From Ceratodon purpureus (lineage: Eukaryota > Streptophyta > Bryopsida > Pseudoditrichales > Ditrichaceae), in assembly GCA_014871385.1 (NCBI GenBank), contig CM026422.1:26024987-26088986 (forward strand): 64,000 nucleotides of DNA, given 5' to 3'. This document shows, piece by piece, positions 187 through 57,571 of the stretch (within the stretch, counting starts at the first letter, position 1; the number at the start of each line of letters is the position of its first letter). The translations under genes were made by a program, and so were the position numbers. The notes beneath the pieces are model-generated. The model made no database searches, was not told where the DNA came from, and saw only the letters and a program-made list of their open reading frames with translations.

Positions 187-3100
187 TCATTTGTCTGTAC
201 CACGTCCCAATGATGTACATCCAGGTTGGTGACACACAGCCTTAATCTTTCCCAGCACAGCAGGAGACTTGAGAAACAGATTTCCACATTGGCATATCCA
301 TAACAGTGATGTTGAGTTGCATTCCATAACCTCCTCGACCAATAAGGGGGACCCATCTGCACGTCGGTTTAGTGGTGAAAATTGTTCTGCTAACTCCGGC
401 CTCCGAACTAAGATTTGTTGTCCGACACGAGAAGCTCTCCTCATCATCTGCGTATTCAGCACATCCATTTCTAACATAAGACACTATCCGCATCACAATG
501 TAAAGAACGCTGGAAGGACTTGACTGGCAGGTATAGAATCAAGTCAATTTTTGCTACAGCAAAGCAATATTACCCGCTGTTGAATCATTTGTTCCTGACA
601 CAAGAAAAGTGTCCATTTTTTATCTCGTGATAGGTGCTTTCGATTGATAGCAGCAGCCGTCTCCATATCAGCAAGTTCGGCAATATGTGAGGATGATTCC
701 TGCGATTCTGCAATTATCACTCACAACAAGAGGAGATTAAGCTCGCCCTAAAAGTCTGTTCCAATATATTTACCTACTCAAAAGAATTTGAGCTCCTTCA
801 CCTCCTCCAACATATTTCATGTTATATGAATATAAATTTTCCATCAATTATACCCCAATTGCCTGAATGGTTTGACAGATAATCAAATTCTACTACGTTT
901 TTTCAAGATTTGTCTCGTGCGTTACTTGCGATGTTCGATCCTAAAACAAAACTTTCGACAAGCCGCAGAATCAACAGGCAACTCCTGAGTCAGCGGAAAT
1001 ATATAGCTATAAAAAGTCACTTGCGGACAACAAACATAAGATAGAGACACAGAAACTAGTGTTCAAGTAATACCTCGAAGGCTAGCAATTAACTGACCCC
1101 ATTGAAACTTCTCCACTTGTTTCTTTTCAAAGTCCTCAAGTGGAAAATTATAGACTGCGCCTCGTGAGTCTCCTCGCAGCTTGTACGTACACCTGTTTTC
1201 AGAGCCTCCAAAGTCAGCTAAATTAACTTGAGTGATATATCGTCATTCAGATGCCGAAGCTCACTCAATGAACCCATCTCTACCCTGCAACACTAAATTT
1301 CAAATCGAAGAAACATAGACTATATGTAATCGACATGAACGAAGCAGCTTACATGTCAGAGGCGTGAGCGGCCAATTCCGCAGATGCAAATGTGCCAATT
1401 GCGAGGTAGGATCCTCCATAGCGTAGGAAGCTTTGCCACATCCCTGAAACTAACCTCCTGACTCCGTAGTCTGTAAGCAGCAAGAGAACATGACTAACTT
1501 ATATAAAATTTGCTGCTAATGTCCATATCTAACTTCTAGACAAAGAGGTTTTCCTGGGTACAGATTAATTCATATGGTTCTGAACTTACTAACCATCTAG
1601 AACTTTCAAGCATACACCAGAAAAATTCAAATAAAACGAATGGATATAAAAATATTAAAAATGGGACTGAATATGAGATTCAAAGCGGAAAAAACGAAGA
1701 AAACAAAAAAACGAAAATATTTATAAAATACTACAAGAAGACAAGTGCGCAACACGTTCTGTGTTGGTACGGAGAAAGCATAAATTGAACGTGAGGTAGA
1801 GGAGAACTCAGGGCGTACATGAGGGCAGTCTTCGAAGGCCAAATTTTTCGGCAACTGCTACCCACTCTATCGAATCTAAATGTTCCCGTATCTCGGGCGA
1901 TAACTCAGAATACGTCTTTGCTAAGTCTTTATGCAACTTATAAGCGGCTCTGCAAGAGTTGACGTTCAATAAATCAAACACCCCTGCACCATATGTTTGC
2001 AAAGCATCTTCGCACTGTTGCACAAACCAAGCGTTAGACAACAAACTAATAGAAACAACAACCGACTTAACCACCCTGTTTGCCTGATTATATAGTGGAC
2101 TCTATCTGTAGTAGAAAATCATATGCCATCGATTTCCAATACAATATATGTGCATATCGCATGAAAATTTGTGAGGAAACGCTCACATGTCATGAACCTC
2201 AGTTGCCTCAACTTCATTACTTGTAGTCGCCAGGAAAAGTGTGTCGCGCATTGTGCTTTCCACACATACCTCCCACTTCCCCTGTACAAATCGGGCTCCT
2301 CGAGCACCCAGATCAACTTCGGTCCAGTGCCATCACCACATTCTCAATAATGAGTTTTACGAGTAAAAAGCAAATAAATGGCTTGTCAAACTACGAGATA
2401 CAGAGGTGATGCTTTTAGGTCACCGTTCTGAAGAAGGGTTTGGGATTTATAATTAAATTGCAACATGATCAGGACGGTCTGCTAAGCCAGCAAGCTCAGC
2501 ATTCTCAGGATCGAAGAAATATATTGCTCCGACGTCATAAAACAAATACCTGAACTTGGAGGACGAGTAGCCTGATCTGCTAAAGTAGCTCGGACCTCTC
2601 TCAAAGTGAGCTTGGACAGCAGATCCTTCTCATTGTCTGCCAGAAATGTATTCAGCTTGGCACCTTCTCCACATAATTTATATGCAAAACTGAAAGGAAC
2701 CCGCTCAGTATCCAAAAACAATTGCACAAAAACGAAATTTTTTTATTTTTTATTTTTAAAAAGAGTATTAACACTGAGCTATGATCAAATGCCATCTAGT
2801 AGTCCATTGTTCTCTCGGAGAATACCATACATACTATCAATATCATCAACTGCTCTTGAAGGCTGTTTGGAGGCCAGAGAATCATAAATTGATACCCATG
2901 AAAGACTGCATTTTCAACACTGCTCGAATGCACATGAGAGACACAAATTTAAGAGATTAAGGTGGGCTAATGTATTAATAGTATGTGAATCTGAGGTAAT
3001 GTAATACCTGAGGTTACCTCTATGAAACACATTATGGTCTATGCAATACAACTATCTTTGTACAGATTCTAAACAAGTAAAGGTTGTCTTATCCAGGTCC

Positions 3101-5622
3101 TCTTGAAGCGTTCCTTGACTCAGCAAAGAAATACTTCACAAAAAAAGTCTATACCGCTTGTTGTGGAAGGAAATAACAATTTAAATTTAAATAAACAAAC
3201 GTTGTCTGATCTGATCATTGGGTACGGATGCCAACAATAACCACAACAGAATGTTGTGCATGAAAGTTTAGAGCAGAGAGAAAGCCTTACTGTCCTCTGT
3301 GAGAATAGCTGCTAGGCTCAAACCCTCTTTCATAAATTTACAAAGCACATGATATTGGAATTAATAAAATTGCTCCAAGAAACTACACGTTCCCGTTCAA
3401 GTCCTATGACAATACCTGTCATATGTTCTTACAGCAGCATCTACTGAGTTGAATCGCCCCAATTGTATCAAGGTCCCTCGATGCGCATAGTTTGCAGACC
3501 ACTTCCCAGGGGCAACTTCACGAACACCACGATATCCAGTCTTCTCTACAGCAAGTAGTCTGGAAGATCAGAATTGTGTTCTATAAAATGGTCCAAAACA
3601 AAAAAGTCCAGGACAACATATCCTCCACCAAAAATTGAAACCAAACAAGAGACTACAGCTGAAGACGAACACCACAAGACGACACCCACCGCAGAATCTG
3701 CTGGGGCTCACCCTGGGACGCAAATCCCATGATCATTGTTAATCCACAAAAGTAGTAAATGAAGCATAGATGAAGCCTCCAAGACAATTCACAAAACACG
3801 CTCTAGCATACGAACATGGCCGCAAACTCACTAGGTTTACGACGTTCATTGATTTTTAGACCCAGCTTGGAAATCAAAAAATTCCAGTCCATCTGTTTCA
3901 ATTCTGCTGCCGCATCCTCACTAAGATCATAGTTGAGTAGGCCATTACTCCCATGAAGCTTATACTCCACCCTGTAAAAAGCAGAGAGATCATATTTAGT
4001 ACAGTGACAGAAATATACACAAACAAAAGCAATGCTGGCCCCAAAACATTATTCGAAAGGAATACAGGCAATAGGATGATACCATGGACATCAATACTCA
4101 TTAGAATACGGTGTCAATGTTTTACAAATAATTTCTAATATCTACCTCCTATTAAACGAAGTCCACAAAATCATGCACTATACTGTCGGATATAGTCCTG
4201 GACTTGCAGGAATCGAAATTAAATGAGTGGTTCTAATCTCTTCGTAAAGGAATACCATTCTAATGAAAATACTGGCAAATCATGCAAACTCGCGAAATTA
4301 GTAGAAACTTACATGTCATATGCATTGACGGCGTCCATCATCGATGTGAAGTGACCCACGTAACGCTGCTTGCCAATCTTGACAGGAGTGTGCCACATAT
4401 CGTTCTTACAAAGGACTCCATGATAAGTCAGGCCCGCTGTTTTAGAAGTAGAGCACATAAAATTTAAGAAACCCGGAAATATCTCGATTGCAAATCACAA
4501 AGTCAAAATTGCACTACAAACTAAGATCGGACATGATTGTAAGGTGTAGTACAGTTGCAGGTAGCAGGGTGGAATTGAAGTGGTATGATTAGATGTCCGT
4601 CGCAACGTGCAAGTTCTGGGTTCCTTCTTCGAATCTCCATATACCACTCATTTGAAGTGCTTGAGCAAGAAAGACTACCACCCGTTCACTAAATGCGTGG
4701 CACTAAAGCACCAAGAAACCAATATTCAGACAGGGAAAGATGACAACAAGCTCTCGGAGTGGAACTCAAGAAATAATCATCCCTAACCAATCTACCTAAT
4801 TTGTGCGAGCCAAGCCTGGAACTCACTCACATAGTGTCGCCTTTGGCAATCCATTGAGCTGCAGATCCAGAACCAGGTCTTCCCACTCCAGTTCCTTTAC
4901 TTCCTCCTTCTCATTTTCCGAGAGATCAAAATTCGTTACAGCTTCATCTCCATAAAGTTTGTATTGAACTCTACAAATTCGAGAGATTCAACATAAATGT
5001 TCTGTAACTGAGAGACTTGATGCCTCTATCCCGCTTCAACTAGGCAAGCGTAATAGCATTCTCAAGATAAACTTTGTCTTGAAATTCATTTGTGTTGGTG
5101 AAAAGAAGAATGAAAAATGGCGTACATTACACCTGACTTGAGAAACGACAATGACTCACTTGTCATATGCTTTGGCTGCCTGCTCTTCCGACGCAAACAG
5201 AAGTTTAGCTTGACTGCTCCCCGGCTCGATGCAGGCTTCCCAGCGCCCTCGTATTTCACGCAGGCCTATGAACACCACAGTGTCATTAGCTGAACATGAC
5301 AGAGCTGAAGTGCGGAACCACAAGTATCGAGGAACGTGGAGAAGGCAGCAGAAGTAAAAGAATTGAGACCTTTGAAGCGTGAGTAGGGGGGAGCAGCAGG
5401 AATGGGCGAATGTGCGTGGGCGCTGCGAGTGGGAATGGGGGTGGGGGTGGTAGCGAGGTGGGGGTGGCAGCGGGAGAGGAAGACAGTGGGGAGGGGGTGA
5501 AGGTGAAGGTGAAGGTGAAGGTGAAGGTGAAGGTGAGTGGGAGGGGGAGTGGGAGTGGGAAGGGGGCCAAAGGAGGGCAGGGAGGTAGCCCTGCTGAAGC
5601 AAAGCGAGTCCAGGGAGACCAT
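187..5622 (-). CDS. Penta-AP2-like repeat protein with C-terminal Cys motif (13 exons)
   Basis: The spliced model is 653 aa. Exons: 5370-5622, 5160-5265, 4831-4970, 4313-4436, 3832-3971, 3416-3545, 2550-2689, 2187-2316, 1819-1949, 1353-1470, 1074-1192, 574-707, 187-483. The ATG at 5622 lies in a good context (CCACCATGG), and the stop is TGA at 187-189. Five AP2/ERF-like units follow at about residues 80-166, 167-254, 255-344, 345-431 and 432-510. Recognisable AP2 starts are FKGLREIRGRW, YHGVLCKNDMW, GYRGVREVAPGKW and YYGVRRLVSGMW. Each unit then reads A-x-D and (A/Q/E/T)YKL-x-G. Within each repeat an intron falls right after the AYD-type motif in phase 2, and introns between repeats are in phase 1. 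The tail (511-653) has CQCG and CHQPGC, possibly a zinc-binding cluster. Residues 1-80 are Pro/His/Leu-rich and may include a transit peptide. AP2 folds usually bind DNA, but repeat 4 is degenerate, so function is unknown. I recognise no named orthologue. The exon 1 donor (GTCTCA) and the exon 8 acceptor are weak. Confidence 0.8.
5496..5536. repeat. Hexamer microsatellite (GGTGAA)n inside coding exon 1
   Basis: About six to seven copies of GGTGAA on the plus strand. On the minus strand it is translated as alternating His-Leu in the N-terminal region of the AP2-repeat protein. Unit number could vary between individuals without breaking the frame. Confidence 0.85.
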
Positions 5623-7615: not shown

Positions 7616-10600
7616 TCATTTTACTGCCAAAAATAAGCTCTGATGACTGCACATAATGTTGATGATGAGCTCTACATCTGGTTTACTCTTTGCCAATTGA
7701 AAGTCCTAAAAAAGTAGAAACCAAAATGCTTACAAATTACAGAGTCTAAACTGCACTAAATGTCTACGATGACCTCGATTCTAATGAGGCATTCAAATGT
7801 TTCCCAGCGCAAAGTGGGATTCCAGAAACATTCCGAACTATTTTGACAGGTGCAAGTATGCTTGTTACATCTCAGGTGTCGGCTCTTTATGGCGTTACAC
7901 TACCTGAGTGGGACTTTGAAGAGCTTCATCTGTTGTATTTGCCTTACTTTCTATGTGATGCTGCTCCTCCACAGATACTTCTTCCGTAACTTCGTTAGCA
8001 TCAACTCTACTATTTATCTCATGGTCTGTCACAACGGCCTTGTTAGAAGGTACAGAACTTTCTGAAGGTCGATTGGTTGAGGAAGAGGAGACCCAAGCCA
8101 GATTTAAAGACTGGCCATGAAACCACCTACCCTGGGTCATAGCTCTTTCTGCACTTCGTCGAGTAGTATAACTTACCCTTATAGGGTTGTTCGTATTCAA
8201 TGGCTGTCCTAAGTCCATTTTGTGGCCATCTACATCCTCAACTTCCACGCTTGATAACTCACCAAATACTGCAAAATGTTCTCTTACAACTGCAACCTGT
8301 TCACATAAAAAGCATAAATCTTTAAACTCGGAAAAAATTATCAGTTTTCCACCTCATCAACTTGAGCATAAACCGTAACGTCATCCCGCTTATGCTGCGC
8401 TCACGCCGACATCTATTTCTTGCTAACTTCAACAAATCGAAAAGAAAGAACAAACTTACATCAGAGATAGTGGCTGGAAGGGGAGGCAGAACTCTAAAAG
8501 TAGTTGTGCGGTTATCAAGTTTAAATCGTGCAGGACCCCAAGCAGCTGTTGGGTGTCCTGCAGACACTCCAGAAGTTGTCCTAGGGCGAGGAGACCTTGT
8601 AGGCTTCAACGACACCTGTTGCACTCCCACCTGCGCAGCTTCGCTTGAACTGGTCTTTCTAAGGCCAGAACTAGCTGGAGAATTGCTGATGACGGTCTCT
8701 TTCGGGACTCTGACGTCGCCAGCATTATTCACTTTCTGTCGCTTACTAGCAAGCTCTACTACGTGATCTTCAGTTCCAGCAACTCCCTGAAGTCAATTCC
8801 AGAAATTCAGACACACAAACAAACAAAGCCATAACACCACCGAGCGTCCTACCTTCAAATCCTTAACAATAAAATCCAGCTAACACTGCTTGGAAACTGA
8901 AACTCTAACAAAGTCCACTTCCATTGAAAATCCACAAGATACCTAATAATCTCTCGTAACGAGACGCAACATGTGGAGGGTGGTCCACAAACGGGTTAAA
9001 CGCATATCGAAATAAAAAGAGATCCCACCATAATGACTAAGGTGCACGCGCACGATTTACCTGGCTAGCAAGCTTGTCAAGCTTCCGCCGGAAGTCGTCA
9101 CGTTTCTGAGCAAGAGCCTCTTGTTTTTGACGAATCTTCTCGCGCATAAGCTCAAGTTCTTCCTGCTTCTTTGATGCCATTGCTACTGGAGTAGGCAAGG
9201 GCGACGCAGGATCGTTTGAGGTAGTGGCTTTGTTGCTACCTTCTGTAATTGAAGGTCCTGACATGCTGGCAACCACTCCATTCAGACCAGTAAAACCCAG
9301 CTTTCCCCTACCCTTTACAAACTGTGCAGGATGACCACCCGTAGGCTCAGAGCCAGTGGTTGGCGACTGGCCAGTAAAAGAGGTGGAAGCGCCATTGTCA
9401 CTAGTGATACTATCCCGATTAGCCCATGAGAGCCGTATAAAGCGATTTCCCATTACAGCATCAGGGGAAGCCAGTGCTGATTCCGCTTCCTCGCGAGTAG
9501 CAAACTGAACAAAGGCTCTGTCACTGTGAGGCGGAATTCGGACATCCACAACACGCCCAAACTTTTCGAAATGCATGAGCAAGACTTCTGCACGATTTGA
9601 ATTGGGGGGTATACAGCTCACATAGAGTGTGCACTGAGCACGTTCTACACTGCGACCAGAAGCACGTAGCCCCGAGTTGGTCCCCTCTTTCGGGCGGTTG
9701 AATGGAGGACCTACCTCTGCCCACCCGGCAGCACCCCGTCCTCGTCCAGGATTTGCACTCATAATGGTGGCTCCATTGTCAGATTCACGGTCCCCCCATC
9801 TTCCTTGCTGCCACGAAACTCCTCTGCCCTGGCCCCGCTGTTCCTCTAGCTTCACCTCTAAAATTCCAGCACTTACGTCTACAGGTCCAATACGATCCCA
9901 TACAGTGGACCCTGCATCCACACCATGCAAACCGCTACTGTTTGTACCTCTACTACCACCATCATTTCCTCGCACATCCGGGTTCTTCTTGACTTCTACT
10001 TTCTCTTTTTCCACCTCGGTTTGTTCCGTCTGAAACGATGACAGCTTCCTAATCCTTCCCGTTGCCTCAGGTCTATCTTTATTCCAAAGAGGTTGATCAG
10101 GATCATACAAGTCGGGTTCTGCACCAGACGCTTGGCCATTCAACATAATTGGGACTTCCAGTGGGGGAACGCTTGGCTCCCGGCTACCTCGATTCCCCCG
10201 AGAACTTGAAGGTGCGACAGTAGGTAAAATAGAATTAGAGGCTGCCATTTGGCCAGGGGCCACAATCATACCTCGGCCGTTTGGAAGGTTCACAGGTAGG
10301 TTAAACTTGGAGAGGCTCTGCAGAGTGAGCCACAATTAGAACATCGGGTTGAAAGAAGGAAAATAACCCATTCTACTGAGCATAGACAACTGAGCTCCTT
10401 TCCTATAATTCTAGATGAGCACACCATAATACTCATAGTCGGCAACATAGCACTAAAACGCACAGCATGTTGCAGGTAAACATCTATTAAAACGAGAATT
10501 AAACAAACAGAACCTACTAAAGTTCCACCCTGTATGCTTCCGGACAATGCTAAAAGAAAACCAAACCAAAGATATGATAGGCACTATGCGTCTAACTACG

Positions 10601-12670
10601 CTATAGGAGTGATGCTGTATTATACCTGTACATCCTCGACAACAATGTGAGACCCGTGATCCATGGGACACAGATCTCCTCGCAGACAGAACCCTCGTTC
10701 TTCAAAATCCAAACACCTCGGTCGAACGGGTCCTAAGCCCATTCCCATACCTAGGTTCATAACCCCAGGCGGCCCTCGCCCAGCATGCGCGTGCTCTAAT
10801 GAACCAGCTCCCATACCACCCATGTGTCCGAACCCCCCTGGCCACCCTGCCCCACGGCCACCCAGGCCCCTCCCATTTGGGAAAAAACCTGCATTCGGAG
10901 GCAACAAAGGCGGTGCATCACCAAAAGGGGGCGGCATAGGACCAACCCAATTCCCAACCCCTCTGCCACGACCCATGCGTACGCTATCGAGCCGTAGGTT
11001 TGGTGCATCCCCTCGAAACGGAGGACCACCGCCACGCAGTAGACCTCGTTCTGACTGGTCTCCATTGCTGAATCGACCTCCTCCATCACGGCCTAATCGT
11101 CTTTCAAACTTTGAGGGTCTTTCGCGGTCAAATTGACCAACTCCTCTCCCATGCTCACCAGCTTGACGTTTGAGGTCGTTCGAGCCACCTCCATTGTAAC
11201 GAGAAACATTATGTTCGTCGACTCGATCTGTAGATCTTGATCGAGAGACTCGTCGTCGATGCTTGTGGTTGCGGTCATCATCACTACTCTCTTCTTCCTC
11301 CAATTCGTCCTCCCAGTCCTGCACGCCAGCACTCGGCAGTCTCTCCAAATGAGATGGTGATATCCTAGTATCCACCGCACCAGCAACAGTCTCTATGTTG
11401 TCCAGAGACTTGGCACCCTCTAAGTCTTCCATACTTGAGGGAATTCTTCCGTCGTCAAGAGCATTAAAGAGATTTACAACAAACGAGTTTGTTCCTGCAC
11501 CCACGGCTGGTACGAGATGATCAGTAAAAATTCCCTCTTCAAGCAGTACCAACCATCAGTATGTCAACAAATAGAGCGATCCTTGTCCGAACTTTACAGA
11601 CCGTGAACTCTATGAAGAAGCTCAACCATGAGGAGGAGATAGCTTGTCAGGCAACGCAGATTCAACTGCAGACCATGAACTGACCTACTCCAAGAAAGTC
11701 GTACAGCTGATCCACGCACAATGTCTGGAGTTCTTTCTTGGACCTATGGTTCTTTAATAATGCCGCAACATAGTCAGCAAGCAAAGTAGGATCTGCTTCG
11801 GTCCTGGACACCGTATTAAAGGTTGGATTCAGTCGTTTGAACATTCGTGAGGAAATTTTGAATGTTCACAAATGACATCCAGCAATAATAAGTCTCTAGA
11901 CACATTAACTGCTAATAAATTTCTTGATAAAAATGTTACACCAATCTACTCGACTTTAACTGTACACCAACATTACAAAATTGCCATTTACCTCCTGCTT
12001 CTCAGTGTATTATAATGTAGCATGATCGGGTTGATATAGTTAAGGGATCAAACCTCTAAGTATATCCAGCAACCATGCGCTCAGCCTTACAATATGCTAT
12101 ACGACCGCTCTCGTTCGGTTGTCTACGGATCGAAAGCAGTCATAATCGTTTGCACGTTTGTCTAGCGTACCCTATTACATACTGATTGCATTGCATCCTG
12201 TGCGTCAAGTGAAATTCATATCCGAATTTCTGCGGTTCAAGAAGTAATCGGCCTGGTGTGATAGACCAACTCACAGGAAACCAGCATGTACGTACGAACC
12301 TACAACCGTTCGCGTATGTGCACGGAAAATATCTTAATCATGCGAGGTGCGTCCAGATAGAAGGCGTGAAGCAGGAACTACTGATGTCTCGTGACTTAAA
12401 ATTTAATTACCAAAAAATTGCCCGCCCGTATGTGCCCTCCCAACTGCAGACACAGTATCCGGAGTGAGAAAACAAAAATAGCCAGTGGCACACCCTGCCG
12501 ATAGCTGTCCTGGAGAATTGAACTTGTGTGACCCCTGAGATGCCTCGAGAGCGAGCGAGGAGAGGAAGCACTCGAAGGAGAAGAAACAGTAAGGAAGGAT
12601 AAAAAGGTACTCACAATGGTTTGAGGTGTTGGATCAAGTAGTGATTGAGAGGCGTGTCGTCAATCTTCAT
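7616..12670 (-). CDS. RBM26/RBM27-type CCCH and RRM RNA-binding protein
   Basis: The model has seven exons and 1050 aa: 12615-12670, 11685-11803, 10626-11536, 9061-10317, 8460-8786, 7904-8296 and 7616-7705. All joins keep frame. Domains: a PWI-like N-terminus (ADPTLLADYVAALLK, YDFLG, then FVVNLFNAL in exon 3), an RS/RG-rich stretch, a CCCH finger at about 332-351 with C-x8-C-x5-C-x3-H spacing, RRM1 at about 590-665 (LYVSCIPP, RAFVQF), a charged coiled coil at about 741-781, and RRM2 at about 875-960 split over exons 5 and 6. This order matches animal RBM26/27 and the plant CCCH/RRM proteins of the C3H41 type. Animal members work with the nuclear exosome targeting (PAXT) machinery in RNA decay; a similar nuclear role here is inference. 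The last exon (29 aa after a TTTTTTAG acceptor) is tentative; translation might instead end differently. Confidence 0.85.
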
Positions 12671-24606: not shown

Positions 24607-24708
24607 CACAGACAGACAGACAGAGAGAGCGAGAGAGCGAGAGAGCGAGAGAGTGTGTGTAACTTAACTTATGTGAGAGAGACTCAGAGCGAGCGAGTGA
24701 GTGGTCTT

Positions 24709-24744
<36 letters not shown>

Positions 24745-24789
24745 TGCAGTGCAGTGCAGTGCAGTGCAGTGCAGTGCGGTGCGGTGCGG
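24607..24789. repeat. GACA/GA and GCAGT microsatellites upstream of TPST
   Basis: A compound tract: GACA and GAGAGAGC repeats (24607-24660), (GA)n at 24712-24741, then GCAGT pentamers grading into GCGGT (24745-24789). It lies in the likely 5' leader or promoter of the TPST gene. Frames crossing it are artefacts. Confidence 0.9.
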
Positions 24790-24984
24790 GAGCCCAAGTT
24801 GCATTTTTGGACTCCCCGAGTCCTCCATCCCATCCATCCACGCTCCACCCCAACCCTACGCCACTAAGTTACGGCACTGCCCGCACTGCTCTGCCACCAA
24901 CCAACTTCGGTTCCAACCCCTCTTCCTCTTCCTCGTCCTCTTCCTCCCCCATCCCTCTGGCTGCCCCATCGCCATCCTTCCGCT

Positions 24985-27276
24985 ATGCCATCCTCCACCC
25001 GTGGCCACGTCCTTGCTCCTCCTTTTCTGCTCCTCTCCTGCTGTGCGTCTTTCTCTTCTCTTCTCTTCTACTTCCCTAACCGGCTTTATTCCATTTTTCT
25101 TCCTGCTTGCGCTCACTTGTTCGTCTTCTGCGTGCCTTCGTCCGTCAATCAATCAATCCCCTCATTCATTCCTCTCATACGTTTGTTCTTGTGGTGTTTT
25201 GGTTCCAGTGTTTCTAGCGTGTCACCACACACAGCTCGTAGCCGCTTCTACGGCATCGTCATACGATCGTCGCTCATGTGAGGCAGCAGTGCTCGAATGG
25301 TCAGCCAAGGAGAAACTTGCTTTGAACAACCAGTTGCACCCGGTGCAACACGAGGGCGTGAAAATTCTTGATCTTCTCTTCTTTTTGCATATCCCTCGAA
25401 CTGGCGGTCGTACATATCATCAATGGTACAGTGTCCCTGCAAGACTATTCAATTGTATATTCTTATCCCTTGCAATCTTGTACATGTCTTATGATCTGAT
25501 TTTTTGAAGCGTGTGGTGTTGATTATGCCTCTTGAATGCCTGAACCACTGAACTACTCGAGCTAGATACTCTGCGCAGTATTAATTTCTGTAGCTTGTAA
25601 TTCTAAATATACTATGAGGCGCTTCTTCTATAGTAACATTAGGTGGCACAACGAGGTTTCCACAGGTAGAGCACAGCTGTGTAAGCAGAGTGTGTGTTTC
25701 TCTTCCCAGCATAAGCTCCACTCTAATGATGAGATTTGGTCTTGTCTCGACCAGCTTCTTGAAGAATCTGTATTTGCCAAAGGATCGGTGTCCTCGATCT
25801 TACGATAAATTGCGGCTGGACTTGAGGTTATTGCATACCCAACTCCTCAAATTGTTCCTTCTTTGTGGGTTTTGGATGGTCCTAATGTCAAGATGACCGT
25901 AATTTTTCGATGTCAGCATTTTCTGATTTGTATAGTGGATATTTCGTGACGTGGAATATTCGAGAGGCGAGGGATTGCCTGTTTCTTCCGTCTTCCGTTA
26001 CACGTGGTACCTGCTACTGTCTTGAGCACCATGGTGGTATGGGTTAGTTTTACTGCGCTGCACTCTGCAGGATAATATTTTCTTTTTGCTTTCGACACTG
26101 TTCCAAAAACGTTGTGTGTGTCAAGCAAGGTCTAAGAACTTTTGCGTGTCCTCACGATTTTCTTAATTAAGACGACGTTTGGGGTTTCAGCCGACTAATA
26201 GGTAGGGTCAGGGGTTGAGGGTGCAGCCAGCCTAGTTGCAAGCTTTTGTCTTCACACGATGACATGAGCATTCTGAACAAGATACCAAGCAGGACGTCTG
26301 TTGTAACTAATATGCGAAATCCAGTTGATCGAGTGTTGAGCACATACGAATTTTCAGTGGAAGTTGCGGCTCGTTTTTTGCGTCTAAAATCAATCAATTC
26401 ATCCCGTAGCCCTCTACCCCGTGCTAATTCTCCTTCAGAACTCGTGAGCACTCTCACTATCTGGCCTTGGAAGTACTTGGTCCCCTTCATGCAGCATGAT
26501 ATTTTTGCACGGGTAAGATGACAATGACATATTCATTCCTACTTCTATTTGCTCAATTTGGACGCTTTATCAAAGATATCGATTATGCTTAGAATGTATT
26601 ATTTTTGTGCATAGGATTTAGCTATGAATTGATGAACGTTAAAGGCAGTTTTCCTTGAATGTAGGGAAATAGTCCAAAATAGTCCTCTTTTTGCTTAGAC
26701 ATTTTGGCTTGCATTTCTCTCAATTTGGTGAGAGGTGCGATTAGATTCAAGAGATATATGTGCTACGTATCTATATGAAATATGGCTAACTCTTCTTCTC
26801 ATTCGCACTCCAAGATGAGCAGATTTTGTTCCTTCGAGGGAATATTTTTGCTTTTATCACATATGCATGATGTGCTGAATTGATTCTAGTTTTCATCACA
26901 TTACCAGTTGTGTGCACTGGAGTTTACGAAACGCTGATTGTCTTTTCTGAGTGGCAGCGTGATGCCCGGCGAGAAGGGAAGGTGGACTGGCCTCCATCAA
27001 GCAATACAACGTACGATGCACCTACAATTACCATGCCTTTAACTGAATTCATTCATCATCCAGTCGCGCACGAACTTGTTCATAATGGTGCTACATTTCA
27101 GGTCTCCACAACTACTTGGACAACTCATCATACTTACAGAGTTTGTTGTGCAAGAATGGTTAATATTTTCTTATTAAATGCATCCTGGAAGTTTCTATGG
27201 TTCCCACAGCTTTTGCACCAAGACATAGCACTAGAGTTCGTTTTTTTTGTTTTGTTTTGTGTGTGTGTGTGTGGGG

Positions 27277-27319
<43 letters not shown>

Positions 27320-29189
27320 GAGGGGAGGGTTGGTTGCATCGGGGATTGTTTAGATAACGTGATTTTATGGTACAGGTTGCAGGGTTGACGAATAATTCAT
27401 ATGAGGAAGGTTCCGTTGTGATTCGAAAATGTATCAGTCAGTATCCTAAACTTGGCTATCAAGTGCTTGATGTTGCCAAGGTATGGTTCTGAGCTTCAAA
27501 AAGGGTTCCAAAAGCAAAATAGCAACGTCATGATTTGTTGGCCTAATTTCTAGATAATGATAGGCATCGTCTGAATCGTTTTTTCTGATGAAATCTTGTG
27601 AAGTTGTGACGCAGAGGCGATTAGATTCTATGTTGTTCGTAGGCTTAACAGAGAAGCACCAGGAGTCGGCAACAACCTTCTTCTCGCTTGTGGGTGATCA
27701 AGTTCAAGTTCAATCTGAAGCACTGAAAGGGATTTTGGATCCAAATACATCTGTTCCAGGTCTGATTATCACCTTGAATTCATTTTTTATTTGGATATAG
27801 TTATTTTCTGTTCAAGTTGGACTACTTTCACGAGGTAGCTGTACAGTACACTAGGTCGCCGCCATGGAGCGTTATAGTGCTGACTGACAAAGACAGTGCA
27901 GGAGAAGAATCCTCCGAATCTTTTGCTCGCGGCGTATAAGTCCTGCCTTACCAGTTTGCGCTCCTCTCATGCCGTTCGTCGAGCTTCCACCTTACAGCTG
28001 ATAAGCCCTGTCAGATATTCTCAAGAGGTTTGTAATCCCTTCTTTTGTATGTAAAGCTCTGTAAAATATTTGGGTACTTTTTAGTCGGCTTAACTTGGAT
28101 GCATTTTACAGTGATTTTTCTTTTTCTGCCAAGTATCTAGTTTACAGACTAAGATGAAATATTACATGGATACATATGCTCTATTGCAGTGGCTGACAGT
28201 TCCAGTGTCATAACGTGCTGAAAACATTTTTCTGCAGAATAATTTAATGAAATTGTCTATTCTTTTAATCGTCATTCAGATTTTTATGTACTAGAAAATT
28301 CTGGTTCATTGGTTAATCGTTTACTTCCAGTCTATCCTGGCTGTGCTGCCATTGATCTGCTGGAATATGATTTTCATATGCTGGAATATGACTCAGCTGT
28401 AGCAGAAGGTTCGGTAGTTTACTTACAGTTTTGTTCATATAGGAATCACCAATTTCTGGGTATTTCTTATATAATGTGTTCTTGAACGGCTGAGGTTCTT
28501 GGAGATAGTGACTTTCTTACATCGTGCATGTACAGGAGAGAGATCTTATACCATCTTCTGTGGTGGATAAGATTATTTATTTGAACAAACTAGACATGGA
28601 GCTTCACGAATATGCCAAGTTTCTTTATGCCAAGCAACAGAAGCGATTCGAAGCATCGACATCACCTCAGGTTATATTTATGAACAGTATGAATGATCAG
28701 GATGGTTTTCTGCCTGGTGCAATTTAAACAAATAAAATTGTGGAGATTTTAAGTACGCAGTGATTGGTGTACGCAATGTATTGTGTCGCTTTATCATATC
28801 AATTTTAGGGCCTGCTTTTAAAATATTAGAATTGAGGTAGGTCAGTTCGTAGCTGTTGGTTGATTAAATTTCTCGTTTTCCCGCACTCACCATCTCTGAA
28901 TTACTAATCACGAAGACACTGGTTGTGGCTTATTTCAAGTAGGTTTTGTATTTTAGTGAGTGGAAATATCAATATCACAGAGGGCTAAGTTGCGATGTGT
29001 TTTGGTTGGATGCAGATTAAGGAAGGCCAGATCGTCGTTCTATCGATGTTTCTTGTTCTTTGCATCACGTTGAGTGTACTTCTTTTGGGATTTGCACTTA
29101 TGCTAAGGGTTCGAAATAGGGTAGGGAATGATTGGGTACCGTTCTGGTTACGGCGCTTAGCATTCATGCAAGCTCATGAAAAGCTCTAG
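24985..29189 (+). CDS. TPST: Tyrosylprotein sulfotransferase (plant TPST type), 5' end tentative
   Basis: TPST transfers sulfate from PAPS to tyrosines of secreted peptides in the Golgi. Supported exons: to 25425, 25755-25826, 26227-26512, 26958-27101, 27376-27480, 27615-27759, 27897-28027, 28536-28670, 29016-29189. All joins keep frame. Key features: the PAPS-binding motif FLHIPRTGGRTYHQ at the end of the first exon, CPRSYDKLR, the 3'-phosphate region MRNPVDRVLSTYEFSVEVAA, LVHNGATFQ and RRLDSMLFVGLTEKHQES. The C-terminus has one membrane helix (VVLSMFLVLCITLSVLLLGF). This layout fits the plant enzyme, which is a type I membrane protein related to heparan-sulfate 6-O-sulfotransferases. The 25425 exon frame has no upstream ATG. 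ATG 24985 opens a hydrophobic signal-like leader in another frame, so a short 5' intron is likely but not placed. Confidence 0.85.
27278..27318. repeat. G41 homopolymer in TPST intron
   Basis: An uninterrupted run of 41 G follows T-rich and GT repeats in the intron between the exons ending at 27101 and starting at 27376. It may be collapsed or extended by the assembly. Confidence 0.85.
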
Positions 29190-33437: not shown

Positions 33438-36400
33438 TTATCTATCTCCGCATCTAATCGAAGGCCGATGATAAAGTCTTTCCCCGTCTTTATCGTCATC
33501 TTCATCTCTCTCCTTATTTCCCCCCATAAGCTCATCTACACAGAAGCAGTATAACTCCTGATGGAGTTGTTGCCATTGCTGACCATTATGCAAAGCCCGG
33601 CGTAATTCCGATCTTAGCCTTTCTAATTCCATTTGCATTGCTGCCGTAGACCCTCGTTGCTGTCCAAAACAATCTCCATTTCAGTGCATACTCTTTGAAT
33701 TCTCAAAACAAACTCTTACAACAACAGGTCAAGTTTACAGAAACTGAAAGTAGCAACGAGAAAGTACAGATTTCTGAGATACGTACAGATATAAATTGTC
33801 GTCAATCATAACATGCAGAGGAATTACATAAACCATAGCACAAGAGAGGAACCATAACTAGGAGGCAGGAACGAAGACTCGTATCAAGAGGTGAACTAAC
33901 CTCTAGCTCTTGTATTTGACGCTCCATGGCTGCAGAACTATATGAATGACCTTCGAAATCCTCCTCTTCTTGATAAGAAGCTGGAAGCACAACCAATGGA
34001 CCTTCCCAAGGGTTTGGCTCATGCGACACCGCATCTGACGCGATGTATTTACTTAAAGGAGCCACTGGAATCGTTGGAATTTGCCTATTCAGAGATCGCC
34101 CCTGCTGCGTGCCATGTTGCAACAGAGGAGGTCTTGGCAATACTAGCAAGCAATTGATAGGTCCTGGATAAGTCTCCAGAAAAAGACGTCAGCGAAACTT
34201 CATGAAAAAAGTAATCTCAATGATTTCAATTGACTAGACAATAATCGCAAGAGAAAGACAATAGTTCAGCTGGTTAGCGTTCATGTGGAGGTAGAAATGA
34301 TTTAATATAAGCATTCAAAACATAAGGTTAACCATATGCTTAAAAATAAATTGGTATGAAGTGCATATTGATACAAGACATAAAAAGTTTCTTGATGTGC
34401 TTCATGCATGAGATTAAAAAGGACCGTACCTTTGTTGTGTGTAAACGTTCTTAAAACTTGTTTGCTTGTAGTGTCCCAGAGGCGCGCTGTGCAGTCCTCA
34501 GATCCAGAAACTAAAGATACTCCATCCATACTGAAGGCTAGTGAAGTAACTGCTCGGCTGTTCAGATGAGAACAAACAGCTCATGTAATAAGCATGATTC
34601 GGTTGACTCCATCAATCAAATAACTGATGGATACATGAAGAAATGAAATGAGATCTGATCATTACCATCGACAGCCAAGATACTAAGGTCATTTTAGTAA
34701 AACGTGGTCATGTGAGTAAATAAAGTACTTCAGAACAATTATGGCGTACAAATGTAACTAAAAATGATTAAGTAGCAACATCCCGTTACCTGTGGCCAAT
34801 AAGAGCAGCATCAGTGCCAAGAATTCCATCGGCAAGAATGCCAGACGATATAGGTACTCCAAAATTTAGGGCAGTGATAAAAATTCTGCCGTCTGCACCA
34901 CCCGCATAAAGCGCATACTCTCCAGGATCTAAGACAACAGCATTTAATGCTGTCGGAAAAACTATTGACCTTAGTAGAGTTCCAAGAGCAAGGCTCCAAA
35001 TCTGTGAACATGCAACCCTGAACAAATTAAACCAAGAAGAAAAGGAAAAGAGATTAATTGAAGAGCTAGACTAACAGATTTAGATGACACAGGTGCAAAT
35101 AACACAACACGTTTGTACAGCTTTGCAACTTCGTTAATTTTAACAATTCGATTCCACAGAGCGCAAAGGGTTACCACATGAGAATGCGTTTAACATGCTG
35201 CAGGAGGGGATCGTTAAGAAGTATCAAAAGATCACCTTGCAAGTATGGTCCAAAGAGCAAGAAACGACAACAGCGTTAGGGCCACCAGACCCTGCAAGAA
35301 GTCCCGTCACTGGTAAGGTGTGATCAGACCACCCATACATGGCAGCAACTTGTCCCTCTGCTCCTTGATTATCCTCTCCCATATCCAATACCCTGTAAAA
35401 ATATGACAACAATCAGCACCATACGAGATGGACAAGACAACAATTCAATCGCAAAAACAGATATGGATACCAGAGTCGATAGTTATAGAACAGGAAGAGG
35501 CATGTTCAACTGCAAGAAAGAACGGAGACAAACAGACTCATACTTTTTGTTTAGGCCATTCCGGAGTTGCTCGATCCAGTCACTACTCACAAGTTATGCT
35601 CTAGACTCTGGCTGGAATAACAATCAAGGAAATGAACCTGAGAAGAGGCCAGACATTGATGAGACCGTCATCCGCTCCAGAAATGAGCAGTGAATCGTCA
35701 TCAGAAAAAACTAAGCAACTAACGTTCTTGTAGTGAGCTGGCCAAAGCCTTAGCAACTGCCCGGTCGCCACCTAGCACACCAAAATCGATCAAAAGAAAA
35801 TCAGCATAACCTGATCAAGCAGATTGACAAAGCTTAGGATAGGCACTGAATGCAAAGCACAATCCAACAACCACTACAAAATCAACGTACACGCCCGAGC
35901 TCTTGCTTTTCACATGCGATTCATATCGGCTCGTGATGATTTCTTCTGAGATTTGAACATTAGAAGCACAAATTAGAAAACCCACCTCCCAGAAATAGAT
36001 TCGGCCAGACGCACCACCGCCGGCAAGGTACGCTCCATCACTGGTGCAGGCAAGAGGGCCAATAGGCTCCACCGGATAGCTCTTAAATGCGACTTGGTTC
36101 TGCTCTCGGAATACAGACATGGAAGTCAAAGACGGGAGACAATCACATCACAATCCTGCCAGTCTCTAATGCACATTATCCTTACAACGTAATCCGAGTG
36201 AACATAGTATACAAGAGTAATTTCATTAAAACTCTGCTGAGCGCCGAGACACTGTTACTTGTGCTGAACATGTCTGAGTGCTCTACGTGAAGTGCCCTTC
36301 TCACTCTTAGACATGACGAGGTCGAAGCATTGATTTTAGTTAGAGACGACAATCATAATTCACTCGAAGAATAACCTCATCAACAGAATTCCTACAACCT

Positions 36401-36888
36401 ACCCATGATACCCTAGAACGTTGTAGAATTCTATTGAACAATGTCTTTATCTTCTAAGAGAGAAATCTTGATTTGGCAACCTTCTTGACCTCTGTGTGTT
36501 TGAGGATTCCTGTAATTCACGTCCATCCACCACATTATCATCTTTTGATATTGCCTTCCCCTAATTTACTGGAAACAGAAGCCGAGCTTGCCGAAAGCGC
36601 GCGTTCATTCCAGCTTTCTATTGATGGGGTGATTTTTGCGAGGGCAAGTGCAGTAGAGGCAAGGCTCACCTTGTGCCAAGTCCAGAAATGAACGGCACCA
36701 CCACCGGCGGAGCCAGGTTTGTGGAGCTGCGCGGCGGCCAGAAAGTGGGATCCGACGGGGGCGAGCGCATTGCGGGGCGTGGCGCAGGTGCGGAGGTGCG
36801 AGATCAGGACGCCGGAGTGCAGGTCCCAGAGCGTGACCCCCGCATCGACCCCGGAGCAGCACACCACCACCTCACCTGCTCCCTCCAT
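33438..36888 (-). CDS. RID3: WD40 protein, RID3 / Ipi3 (WDR18) orthologue
   Basis: The model has eight exons and 482 aa: 36670-36888, 35986-36099, 35638-35771, 35236-35392, 34790-35001, 34430-34557, 33901-34163 and 33438-33659. Every junction keeps frame. WD-repeat signatures: GVTLWDLHSG near the N-terminus, AGGGASGRIYFWE, LLISGADDGLINVWPL, VVSCSLDHTCKIWSL, YALYAGGADGRIF and LVSGSEDCTARLWD. After the propeller come GPINCLLVL, PLSKYIA and a C-terminal coiled coil (MERQIQELE, LERLRSELRRAL). This matches Arabidopsis ROOT INITIATION DEFECTIVE 3 and yeast Ipi3, a Rix1-complex subunit needed for pre-60S ribosome maturation in the nucleolus. Arabidopsis RID3 is about 440 aa, so the slightly longer C-terminal tail here is divergent. 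Telo-box repeats lie about 280 bp upstream. Confidence 0.92.
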
Positions 36889-37165
36889 CGTCCTCCCCTG
36901 ACCCCCGCCCCACCTGATCCGCAGTGCTCCCTCGTCTCCTATGTGGCGTGCAGGGTCGCAATGATCCCGTTGCTTGCGCTCCGAACACGGAGACTTGCGC
37001 TTGCACTTCCCTGCCCTGCCTTGCCTAGCGTTGGGTTGCCTTGCAAGTGTGCCTAATAGCCTTCTTCGTCAGCACCTGCAATGAAATGGAATCGGCGCCA
37101 CTGTGAGCTTGAGCACCTGACCCTTGGGTCCTTGTGCTCCTGCATGAGCAATGTGCTTTGGTCCT

Positions 37166-44717: not shown

Positions 44718-44722
44718 AGTTC

Positions 44723-45150
44723 TATTGATGTTAAAAGAAGAAGAGAGTTGGTTGCTCTAACAAGTGTAGCAAACAAAGTAATACAAACAATAAATGGAGT
44801 GAGATATGAGCTTCTTTCGAAGCTCTTTACTTATAATACTTGGTTGCACATCTCTAAGGGACTCTCAAGGGACATTCCAAGCCACTTGGAAGTCCCTTTA
44901 GGACACGTGGCACTCATGGCCGCCCCTAAGACTTAGCCACCACCCACTTGTCCTTCCAACCTTATCATTGACTTGGCTTAGTCAATGCAAGTGGGCTGGT
45001 CCTTATCTCTTCACATACTCATGCCACATGTGCACCATGTGGTAAATCACCTCTCTCCCTTTTCTCCCCTTTTACTCCCCCCCTTCTAATTCTACCTCAT
45101 TGCAAACTCTATTTACAATGCCTTAACTACGAGCTACCTAAACTCCAACA
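44723..45150 (-). repeat. Copia 3' LTR
   Basis: 428 bp. On the minus strand it begins TGTTGGAGTTTAG and ends TCAATA. It is preceded on that strand by the polypurine tract. Confidence 0.93.
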
Positions 45151-48100
45151 CTCCCACTTTGCGAGTAGTTACCTTCTCGCAATCCCATGGCCTTTGCTAA
45201 TCGATGGTGCCTCTCCTTCGCAAGTGCCTTTGTCAACACATCTGCCACCATGTCCTCCGTTGGGCAATACCTCAAGCTTATATCGCCGCTCTCCAACTTC
45301 TCTCGAATGAAGTGATGTTGAACATCAATGTGCTTCGTGCGTGAGTGGTGTGTGGGGTTCTTTGCCAATGCAATGCACCCTTGGTTATCACACATGATGG
45401 TCGTTGCATCAACATGGACACACCCGACATCACTTTAAAGCTTGCGAAGCCAAATGGCTTCCTTGGTGCTTTGGCTAGTGGCCATGTACTCCGCCTCCGT
45501 TGTGGACAAGGCAATTGTTGGTTGCCTCTTGCAATTCCACGAAATGGCACCATCTCCAACGAAGAAGACATACCCCGTTGTTGAACGGCGCTCGTTTGTA
45601 TCTCCCGCCCAATTCGCATCGCAATAGCCTCTTAACTCCATGTTGACGCCTCCAGGGCACAACTTGAACTCCAAGGTACCTTGCAAGTACCGCATGATGC
45701 GCTTGACCGCACTCCAATGTGATGGACCAGCCCTAGACATGAATTGGCTCACCATGCTCACCGCAAATGCAAGATCGGGCCGTGTGGCCACCATGGCATA
45801 CATCAATGAGCCAACACCCGCCTTGTATGGAATTCCCTCCATCTCACCTTCAATGGCCTCAAACTCCTCCAACGAGAGCTTCATCAACTTCACATTCACA
45901 TCAAGTGGAGTACCAATGGGCTTGCAATCCTCCATGTTGAATCGCTTGAGCACCTCCCTGATGTACTTCCTTTGGCACATGGTGATGGTGCGAGCCTTGC
46001 GGTTCCTCTCGAATGCCACTCCAAGGCAATACTTCAACTCACCGAGATCACTCATTTGGAACTCCCCCTTGAGCTTGGCCTTGAGCCACTCTAACTTGGC
46101 ATGATGGCTAGCCAAGATGATCAAGTCATCCACATACACAAGCACCATCAACAAGAACTCACCCGTTTGCACGATGTACAAGGAATGATGCCCTTCACAC
46201 CTTGTAAAGCCCTCCTTGATGAAGAAGGAGTCAATGCGTTGGTACCATGCCCTTGGTGATTGCTTGAGCCCGTACAAGGACTTCTTGAGCTTGCACACAA
46301 GGTGCTCCATGCCCTTCTCTTCAAACCCTTGAGGTTGGCTCATGTAGATGTCTTCCTCCAAATCTCCATTCAAGAAAGCGGTCTTGACATGCATTTGATG
46401 GATCTCCAAGTCCAATGCGGCTCCAAGTGCAAGGATGCACCGAATCGTGTTGAACTTGGCCACGGGAGCAAAGGTCTCATGGAAGTCCACTCCCGCAACT
46501 TGTAAGAACCCTTTGGCCACCAATCTTGCCTTGTGGCGCACAACTTCTCATGTAGCATCCTTCTTGGTGCGAAACACCCACTTGCATCCAACACTCTTGC
46601 GGCCCTTTGGAAGGGGAGCCAACTCCCACGTTCCATTAGCAATGAGGGAGTCATACTCTTCTTGCATGGCCGCCTCCCACTTGCTTGCATCCTCCGATTG
46701 CAAAGCCTCACACAAACTCAATGGATCTTCAAGGTTGGCCACATTGGCCCGTTCCACTTCTTGTTGCGGCAAGATGTGGTTCTTCCACCACTCTCCAAGT
46801 GGACGCCGTTCTCGTCTTGGATAGCGACTGCCTCCCTCTCCTTCACCTTCTCTTGATGACGATGTTGGTGAATGCGCCTCGCTTGTCTCCTCCTCCTCTT
46901 CTTCTTCATCCTCCTCCTTGTCCTTCTTGGCATCCTCATGGTCACTAGAAGAAGTTGGCTTGGAAGATTCGTCCACCAACACCAACAAAGGTTACCTCAC
47001 TACTCCCACTTGGACTCATCTCCAAACCATCACCAATAGTAGTGCTCTCCTCATCAAACACAACATCACCGCTCTTGATGATTTTCCTAGTCTCAATGCA
47101 CATGAGACGATAGGCCTTGGTTCCCTCACAATAGCCAAGAAACAAACACTTGGTACCCTTTGCATCAAGCTTACCTCTCTTTGCATCAACCACCTTGGCA
47201 TAAGCAATGCATCCAAACACACGCATGTGTGCAATGCATGGCTTGCGGCCACTCCAACCCTCTTCTCGAGTGATGCTAACAAGAGCACGAGTAGGGCACC
47301 GATTGCGAATGTACACCGCATTGGCCACCGCTTCCGCCCAAAATGAAAGCTTGAGCCGTTGAGCATGAAGCATGCTCCTTGCCATCTCCACAATGGTGCG
47401 ATTGGCTCGCTCCGCAACTCCGTTTTGTTGTGGTGTGTATGGTGTTGATGGTTGTCGTTAGATGCCATGCTTCTTCAAGTAGCGTTGGAAGGCCTTGGAG
47501 ATGAACTCCCCTCCATTGTCCGATCGGAAAACCTTGATCTTGTGCTCCGATTGCGTCTCCGCAAGTGCCTTGAACTCCTTGAACTTCTCAAGGCACTCTC
47601 CCTTGGTCTTCAAGGTGTACAACCACACCCGCCTTGAAAAGTCATCAATGAAGGTCACAAAGTACCTTGCACCACCCATGGATGTGGTCCTCATAGGACC
47701 GCACACATCTGAATGCACAATCTCCAATGGCTTTGACGCACGTGTCCCTCCATCCTTTGGAAATGGTGCCCTATGTTGCTTGCCTTGCACACACCCTTCA
47801 CAAAACGACATGGACAACTCATCTTTGCCAAGGTTCATGCCGCTTACCATGCTTTGAAGAAAGCGCACACTCCTTGCATTCAAATGGCCAAGTCGCCGAT
47901 GCCAAAGCTCCATTGCACCACTCTTCGGTGATGATTGCGCCACCTTTGCCGAATCCGCTTCAAAGACCTTGATGAAGGTCACTTGATACAAGTTGCCTTC
48001 ACGAGGTGCCTTTGAAAGCACATTGCCATTTGGAGCCTTCAATGTGCACCCCTCCACATTGAATAGCACCTTGAATCCACTAGACACAAGCTTGCTCACC

Positions 48101-49194
48101 GAGAGCAAGTTTGCTTGCAACTTGGGCACATGAAGGACATCCTTCATGGTCACCTTCTTCAAACGCCCTTTTTCAAGCACCTCAACAACAATGCAACCCA
48201 TTCCAATGGCTTGCACAACACTATCATCACCCAAATGCACATTGCGTGGTGGAATTACCTCATAAGTGTCAAATGCCGCCCTATAAGGTGTCATGTGCTT
48301 TGTAGCACCCGAATCCATGATCCACTTGCATATGGACTTGGAATAGGGTCCATCTTGTGTTGCAAAGGCGTAGTCATCTTCATCCTTTGCATGGTTGGCA
48401 CCCTCCTTGTCTTTGGCTTGGTTTGCATTGTCCCGCTCCCACTTCTTTGCCTTGTAGCAATGCCTTGCAATGTGGCCCGGCTTGCCACAATTGTAACACA
48501 CCTTGGGCTCTCCCCGTGAGAATGAGCTACTCCCCTTGTTTTGCCTTGATACCAAGGCCGCATCATCTCCATGGACCTCCTTCTCCTTGCGCTTGGACAC
48601 TTCATGCATCATCCTTGCCGTCACAAACTCCATGGTAAGGTCTTCAAACCGCAAGGTCTCCAAAGCCGTGATCAAGTTCTCAAAGGAAGGTGGCAAGCTC
48701 TCTAGCAAGGTCATGACAACATCGTCATCTTTGACGGGCACATCCAAACAATTGAGTTGATCCGCAAGGTCTCTCACATGGTTAATGTGGGTAAGCTTGT
48801 CATCACCATCTTGCATCTTGATGGTGAAGAACTTGCGACGAATAAAGAGAATGTTGGACAAGCTCTTTGTCTCATGGATGTTGCACAATGTCTTCCATGC
48901 TTCGGTTGGCCCTCTGCAATTCCGAATGTGGGCAAGTTGGTTGTCCACCAAATTCAGCCCTATCACGGACATGGCCTTCTTCACACGGCGATTGTACTCC
49001 TTGATAACCTTTGGATCCATCTTGATACCCTCCTCATCGTCGTCTTCACTTGGTGGAGGCTTCTCTGTGCCTTCTACAATCTCCCAAAGGTCCATAGACT
49101 CCAACACCATCTCCATCTTGAACTTCCAAAGGCTAAAGTTCTCCCCCTTGAACTTGTCAATGGTCCTAGCACTCTCATTCTCAAATGTCGCCAT
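45138..49194 (-). pseudogene. Copia Gag-Pol polyprotein, broken
   Basis: ATG at 49194. In order: Gag (UBN2-like, ENFSLWKFKMEMVL), a CCHC zinc knuckle (CYNCGKPGHIARHC), protease (DSGATKHM), the GAG-pre-integrase motif (LWHRRLGHLN), the integrase core (HSDVCGP, FIDDFSR, DNGGEF), RT (VYVDDLIILASH) and RNase H (TTEAEYMA, TKHIDVQHHFIRE). The frame is broken by in-frame stops at 47458-47460 (after the integrase core), 46548-46550 (between integrase and RT) and 45435-45437 (within RNase H). There is also a frame change near 46985. An acidic Glu/Asp-rich spacer follows integrase. The element cannot make a full polyprotein. Confidence 0.93.
45151..45161 (-). other. Copia polypurine tract
   Basis: CAAAGTGGGAG on the minus strand, directly next to the 3' LTR start (TGTTGG). 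This is the expected place for the plus-strand DNA primer. Confidence 0.75.
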
Positions 49195-49740
49195 TATGAC
49201 ACTCAATATGCCATGATCAACCCTTCTAACGTCTCGATGTGCACTATTGCACCTCTACACCCACTTTGAGCCCCTTCTAGACTCAAGTGTGTTTCTACAT
49301 ACCTCCACACTCACATAAGCCCCTACAAGGCTCTCATACTCATGTAAGCACCTCCCACTAGCAAATCAGCCCTTATAAGGCCCTAGTGTGTGAGTGCACA
49401 CTCCAATCAATCAAATTGAGTCCCTTCTAGCTCAAATGTGCAATGGTTCACTTCAAGCACTCAAGTCCTCTCACAATGAACTCAAATGCAAACCTTTGCA
49501 CCTCACTCAAGTATACATCCCCTTTCTTTGCTCCTACATGGAAAGATGGCCTTGAATGACTTCAAAGAGCATCACCTAGACTCCGATGTGCATCTTATGC
49601 ACCTCAAACACTCAAATCAGCACCTTTAGAGAGCAAGCAAGCACATCCACAATGTTTGAACACTTACAAGGTCCAAAAGCTTTGAATGAGCACCTCCACC
49701 ACTCTTGCAACTCTATGTGCCTCCCCAAATCTCCAAATCA

Positions 49741-49911
49741 ACCCTTGTGCACCTCAAAGGCTCCAAATGAGCTCCTTTGCACCTCCAAGGCTCCAAACAA
49801 GCACTTGTGCACCTCCAAAGCTCTAAATCAGCCCATGTGCACCTCCAATGCTCCAAATCAGCCCTTGTGCACGTCCAATGCTCCAAATCAGCCCTTGTGC
49901 ACCTCACACAC
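49741..49911. repeat. 33-bp repeats in the Copia leader
   Basis: About five imperfect copies of a unit with CTCCAAATCAGCCCTTGTGC, between the primer site and gag. The plus-strand frame through them is an artefact. Confidence 0.8.
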
Positions 49912-49979
49912 ACAATGCCTTACAAGACCTCCTCCAAACTACTTAGCAACCAAAGAACTCTCACTTGCAACTCACATGA

Positions 49980-49993
49980 GTGGGCCCATAACC
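49980..49993 (-). other. Copia primer-binding site complementary to initiator tRNA-Met anticodon arm
   Basis: The plus strand reads GTGGGCCCATAACC, which is identical to the anticodon stem-loop (CAT anticodon) of plant initiator tRNA-Met. The minus-strand RNA would therefore pair with that internal tRNA region. It abuts the 5' LTR exactly. Drosophila copia is known to prime from a half-tRNA cleaved in this same arm. Confidence 0.8.
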
Positions 49994-55182: not shown

Positions 55183-55226
<44 letters not shown>

Positions 55227-57510: not shown

Positions 57511-57571
57511 CATTAACATCACTAAACCCATGAACGCAAATTGCTAACCTCTGTTTGCCTTGCGTACAGCC

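Follow-up and report, generated by a model that had tools for sequence, protein, structure and literature searches.

Evidence for a five-fold two-exon module encoding AP2-type domains in a gene of the moss Ceratodon purpureus

Introduction

The AP2 domain is taken as a hallmark of plant transcription factors. A stretch of 64,000 nucleotides of the moss Ceratodon purpureus (GenBank assembly GCA_014871385.1, contig CM026422.1, positions 26,024,987 to 26,088,986 of the forward strand; hereafter the window) contains a gene that a preliminary description, made from the sequence alone, had read as five tandem AP2-like units split by introns at shared places. The locus raised the question of how such a row of units came about and what its product may do. 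The rebuilt gene model was well preserved, and the reading favoured and supported by the data is that the five AP2-type domains probably arose through successive duplications of a two-exon module. Multi-AP2 proteins are a known but little studied kind. The inner intron, placed at the same nucleotide in all five units, makes the gene a clean case for tracing the growth of an array by exon-pair duplication, and a possible organelle role of the protein is its interesting and testable part.

Gene model and intron positions

The five-AP2 gene was located on the minus strand, from 5622 to 187 of the window, with the ATG at 5622 (start codon context CCACCATGG) and the stop codon ending at 187. The rebuilt model consisted of 13 exons with a GT donor and an AG acceptor at every intron and compatible phases throughout. 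It encoded a protein of 641 aa in place of the 653 aa given earlier, and the join between exons 12 and 13 was its least certain part. The five tandem AP2-like units at a spacing of 79-90 residues were borne out (82, 88, 90, 87 and 79 residues for units 1 to 5), on a strand that the preliminary description had left unstated. The first-half exons of 106-130 nt and second-half exons of 119-140 nt were recovered with the same lengths (Table 1).

In all five units the inner intron followed the D codon of an AYD-like motif at a distance of exactly 2 nt, in phase 2. The motif read AYD, AYD, TYD, VHD and ASD in units 1 to 5; the shared position and phase described before thus held in every unit and the A-x-D motif itself in only three of five. 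The entry intron was in phase 1 in all five units, as had been stated for the introns between units. Measured from the G codon of the YRG-like motif, its exact position (-17 nt) was common only to units 2-4; unit 1 had it at +1 and unit 5 at -5. With the second acceptor of unit 4 (same phase, by eye) its entry intron would lie at +1, as in unit 1.

Homology among the units and AP2 identity

Scored against a profile of the other four, units 1 to 5 reached 68.3, 49.2, 42.5, 33.8 and 47.0 bits, while the highest scores in 2,000 shuffles per unit were 15.1, 8.7, 10.2, 7.2 and 11.7; the real score was never reached. Nine of the ten pairwise unit alignments scored above all 1,000 shuffles, and the alignment of unit 4 with unit 5 (z 4.5) was reached by 4 of 1,000. 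Units 2, 4 and 5 each paired best with unit 1, from which no order of duplication was drawn.

The preliminary description had proposed profile searches with Pfam AP2 (PF00847) and had named the absence of an AP2-like score in units 2-5 as a result that would count against it. The whole protein passed the Pfam AP2 cut-off narrowly (34.0 bits against 33.3), with three stretches reported for the five units. No lone unit passed the cut-off, and units 2 and 4 alone escaped Pfam. Against an AP2 profile, units 1, 2, 3 and 5 exceeded all 5,000 shuffles; unit 4 was marginal by itself (12.3 bits, a score that one shuffle in 5,000 also attained) and would count as AP2 mainly through its kinship with the other units.

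A joint profile of the units had WRI1 as its best match in the PDB (1.5e-18), with ERF096, TEM1 and AtERF1 also found. The phage family phrog_99 matched the whole protein at 8.2e-30 in four stretches and unit 2 alone at 1.4e-6. A Pfam scan of the protein (limit E 10, with the HMMER filters dropping most matches above 0.1) did not report B3, zf-C3Hc3H or HNH. NCBIfam gave one match only, below its cut-off (E 0.079), and Foldseek at E up to 0.001 gave nothing for the predicted first halves of units 4 and 2, pieces of only 42 and 40 residues. The extension after each unit looked helical by eye. Its identification with the AP2/ANT linker was not borne out, as the unit profile of 86 positions aligned with WRI1 R1 no further than position 73.

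Overall, the units were mutually homologous, of AP2 type by several profiles and cut by a nucleotide-exact inner intron, which supports the proposed duplication of a two-exon module. A module with an inner phase 2 intron and outer phase 1 introns would have multiplied by tandem duplication and its copies would then have diverged. Copying of a unit should keep the reading frame because both flanks are in phase 1.

Table 1. Exons of the five-AP2 gene in window coordinates, with lengths of the exons of the array.
Feature	Position	Strand	Length (nt)	Content
Exon 1	5370..5622	-		Start codon and 84-residue leader (1 acidic, 18 serine/threonine, 17 proline, His-Leu repeat); terminal FK opens unit 1
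Exon 2	5160..5265	-	106	Unit 1 first half, ends at AYD
Exon 3	4831..4970	-	140	Unit 1 second half
Exon 4	4313..4436	-	124	Unit 2 first half, YHG ... AYD
Exon 5	3832..3971	-	140	Unit 2 second half
Exon 6	3416..3545	-	130	Unit 3 first half, YRG ... TYD; best-scoring unit in Pfam
Exon 7	2550..2689	-	140	Unit 3 second half
Exon 8	2187..2316	-	130	Unit 4 first half; most diverged; second in-phase acceptor 18 nt downstream
Exon 9	1819..1949	-	131	Unit 4 second half
Exon 10	1353..1470	-	118	Unit 5 first half, YYG ... ASD
Exon 11	1074..1192	-	119	Unit 5 second half
Exon 12	574..707	-		Tail; no Pfam match reported
Exon 13	187..447	-		Tail with W-x-C-x-C-G-x16-C-x4-C, a zinc-ribbon-like cysteine pattern (by eye), and stop codon

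Genome context and origin of the inner intron

The genome searched comprised 362.5 Mb in 151 contigs, with the window in contig C2, and held at least 87 Pfam AP2 matches. The five-AP2 gene is nuclear, and a close paralogue of it was not found: the whole protein gave 39 matches, of which 13 were its own exons and 26 were AP2 domains also listed by Pfam AP2 (E ≥ 0.0048). This search scored only 38 candidates, and a very distant paralogue could escape it. The tail matched itself and then only stretches at E 0.475 and 6.7, and its cysteine pattern had no significant family match (phrog_35899 weakly, E 0.064). Two non-plant collections, scanned with exact 8-residue patterns that reach close relatives only, gave three (viral_contigs) and seven (genome_contigs) matching stretches, none of which was confirmed as a relative. 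Rfam at gathering scores gave no match within the window. Separately, open frames with two strongly diverged tandem AP2 domains were seen at three loci (L071, L072 and L073); L072 belonged to a group of four matches, identical in score and in frame length, that lie within 30 kb of contig C3 (16885706-16914869), with two per strand.

The intron survey covered 32 distinct AxD sites obtained by a pattern scan of fetched AP2 loci, with identical last 20 residues counted once. The gene's own loci (L009-L021) and a phage locus (L069) were excluded, the pattern did not match in some loci, and the sample is biased towards the cut site, since 20 loci were picked for a Pfam match stopping near it. Inheritance of the inner intron from the other AP2 genes of the genome was rejected for these sites, none of which (0 of 32) showed a GT at +2 from the D codon; it could still hold for families unseen by the survey. 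At seven sites a phase 1 donor lay 4 nt downstream of D, 23 sites ran on with neither cut, one ran on and also had a GT at +4, and one was a false pattern match. By eye, the frame ends in the moss AP2/ANT gene L074 followed NFP and LGTYS and did not fall at AYD. With no such intron in the surveyed genes, that of the module would either have arisen ahead of the duplications or have come from a lineage outside the survey.

Leader and DNA-contact residues

The leader, which nearly coincides with exon 1, had a single acidic residue in 84. In the first 84 residues of 31 other AP2/ERF frames of the genome, each started at its first ATG and with the gene's own loci excluded, the number of acidic residues ranged from 4 to 17, and none of the 31 was as low as the leader. 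Organelle presequences are typically poor in acidic residues. The leader may therefore hint at import into an organelle, by eye the plastid rather than the mitochondrion, although we infer this with less certainty than the duplication of the module.

In AtERF1, the residues R150, R152, R170 and W172 contact DNA (excerpt of PMC3602543). One of these four was kept in each of four units and none in unit 2, while all four were present in 20 of 26 moss domains.

Comparison with known AP2 proteins

Proteins with three AP2 domains are given in an excerpt of PMC6781369 for Taxus (TcA3Bz1), Ginkgo (Gb_05581), Marchantia (PTQ32953.1) and Physcomitrium (five proteins), some of them with B3, zf-C3Hc3H or Agenet; zf-C3Hc3H was present in only two of the five Physcomitrium members, and these were without B3 (PMC6781369). 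In excerpts of further papers, Coccomyxa CsuAP2-007 has seven AP2 domains (PMC4982375), a Solanaceae ERF clade has more than three (PMC11508751), other proteins have two to four (PMC13158899) or three (PMC8672199) and a pine protein has three together with one B3 (PMC11122039). The preliminary description had recognised no named family with the present layout. These records reduce that novelty, and what is left of it is that the literature search for multi-AP2 proteins found no mention of 'five AP2 domains'.

The five units set the gene apart from the AP2/ANT family (two AP2 domains), from Soloist (a single AP2 domain) and from ERF/DREB (one AP2 domain with conserved contacts), as at most one of R150, R152, R170 and W172 was kept per unit. 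The gene also lacked the AP2 plus B3 combination of RAV, B3 being unreported by Pfam within the limits given above. With five units, or three stretches by Pfam alone, it agrees in domain number with the subgroup of PMC6781369, which has at least three AP2 domains; B3 and zf-C3Hc3H had no Pfam match here and are absent in some subgroup members. More than two AP2 domains, very variable repeats and occurrence in mosses are common to both. Those proteins have three domains instead of five and, in some cases, the accessory domains that Pfam did not report here, a separation made by description. CsuAP2-007, also compared by description, shares a long AP2 array within the green lineage, but Coccomyxa is an alga. 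Tandem AP2 domains are likewise common to AP2/ANT proteins and WRI1, which have two, and the moss AP2/ANT gene L074 is cut elsewhere (by eye). Soloist/APD1 (At4g13040) has in common a divergent AP2 domain and single copy, but one AP2 domain against five.

A system outside plants offers a possible functional analogue. Toxoplasma imports four AP2 proteins into its mitochondrion, where they work in the mitoribosome (excerpts of PMC11652630 and PMC11742926). They are called RNA binders (excerpt of PMC11652630), and they contact rRNA as scaffolds that carry extensions, and not by way of the features canonical for DNA binding (excerpt of PMC11742926). The AP2 fold is thus used there away from canonical DNA binding, in proteins with a mitochondrial leader. 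They are, however, small subunits of a parasite ribosome, and kinship with the moss protein beyond the fold is without evidence. One literature search for AP2 proteins of plant organelles returned none, a search too narrow to claim their absence.

Possible function and origin

As a best guess, we tentatively put first an organelle nucleic-acid-binding scaffold, on account of the acid-poor leader, the lost contacts and the Toxoplasma precedent. Exon 1 would, less surely, be the organelle targeting sequence. Inside the organelle the mature protein, with its AP2 domains in a row and most ERF-type contacts lost, might serve as a scaffold for assembly or for nucleic-acid binding at several points, RNA being the most likely partner; the Toxoplasma mitoribosome AP2 proteins are the model for this, and the cysteine-rich tail may hold zinc. 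Three observations weigh against such a role: the serine/threonine count of the leader is within the range of the same 31 frames (6-19) and not unusual, part of the leader is a His-Leu repeat, and WRI1 R2 keeps none of the four ERF contacts, yet WRI1 was solved with DNA according to the structure title. The protein could instead regulate transcription by binding DNA in the nucleus, as a multi-AP2 factor like the three-AP2 proteins of bryophytes and gymnosperms, in which surveys would have missed some units; we place this possible role only just behind. It agrees with the AP2 domain as the mark of plant transcription factors, with the five three-AP2 proteins of Physcomitrium and the highly variable repeats of their subgroup (excerpt of PMC6781369), with the three Pfam stretches in a five-unit protein and with the closeness of the unit profile to WRI1, an AP2-family regulator that manages without any ERF contact in R2. 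It fits less well with the ERF contact residues mostly lost, with B3 or zf-C3Hc3H unreported by Pfam and with a leader poorer in acidic residues than all 31 AP2/ERF frames. A bolder form of the organelle scaffold seems doubtful to us. It would make the gene product a land-plant organelle protein almost wholly of AP2, with five folds that have abandoned transcription and attach to organelle RNA or DNA at several sites at once, an independently evolved counterpart of the Toxoplasma proteins; the bryophyte 'three-AP2' proteins might then include five-unit members with two units undetected. The three stretches seen for five units do suggest that Pfam-type surveys could have undercounted relatives. 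If both the organelle leader and the units missed by the standard model are real, AP2 counts for early land plants may be underestimates and the AP2 fold may do non-transcriptional work there.

The remaining alternatives concern where the array came from and whether it is intact. Descent from a Soloist-type gene (At4g13040, APD1), by multiplication of its single AP2 domain and helical extension, is a rival on origin and not on function, and appears unlikely. The Soloist domain would be followed by a stretch like NFELSEE..ELK..SWEEFL, near the NFDLSENEKEEVKELEWEDLV of unit 1, a resemblance taken as a lead; a literature search with such strings gave no paper. Soloist is single copy in the plants compared (excerpt of PMC3022922), as is the five-AP2 gene here, but the Physcomitrium data in an excerpt of PMC4982375 contain none. 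It is improbable that the gene is decaying or an artefact of exon picking, with some units non-coding or missing from the joined transcript. Points in its favour are the strong divergence of unit 4, the lack by eye of a clear pyrimidine tract at the modelled acceptor of that unit, and a model built from genomic sequence; against this, all 13 exons are open, GT-AG and compatible in phase, every unit is still homologous and the inner intron is nucleotide-exact five times. Least probable is a relic of a phage- or plastid-type HNH/AP2 homing endonuclease, captured and not derived from plant AP2/ERF genes. The family phrog_99 (HNH endonuclease with AP2) does match the protein more strongly than Pfam AP2, but plant AP2 proteins match it as well (WRI1 3e-20, a moss RAV-like protein 5.8e-11, AtERF1 7.8e-8 and a moss DREB-like protein 1.1e-6). 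In addition, HNH was unreported by Pfam in the protein, and 55 phage records matched AP2 weakly, with a lowest E of 0.05 among the best 15 of the 55.

Other features in the window

On the minus strand, open frames at 7898-11555 encode an RRM (9040-10335) and what looks by eye like a CCCH zinc finger (in 10623-11555); they probably belong to the neighbouring gene. Fragments of sulfotransferase-like and WD-repeat genes were seen by eye at 24701-27350 (plus strand) and 35818-37068 (minus strand), respectively; the single frames 24701-25504, 26871-27350 and 36541-37068 had no Pfam match at E 0.001. A Copia-type retrotransposon with gag, integrase and reverse transcriptase was present at 44722-50292 on the minus strand, and its flanking 300-nt direct repeats, 98% alike, look like parts of long terminal repeats. 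Long open frames flank a Transposase_21 (tnp2) match (58830-59366) within 57548-61949 on the plus strand, perhaps marking an En/Spm-type transposon. Finally, two diverged repeat families of 147 and 139 nt, 83% and 86% alike, were found at 54294-55469, where the AT skew is strong (0.39 for 54001-56000).

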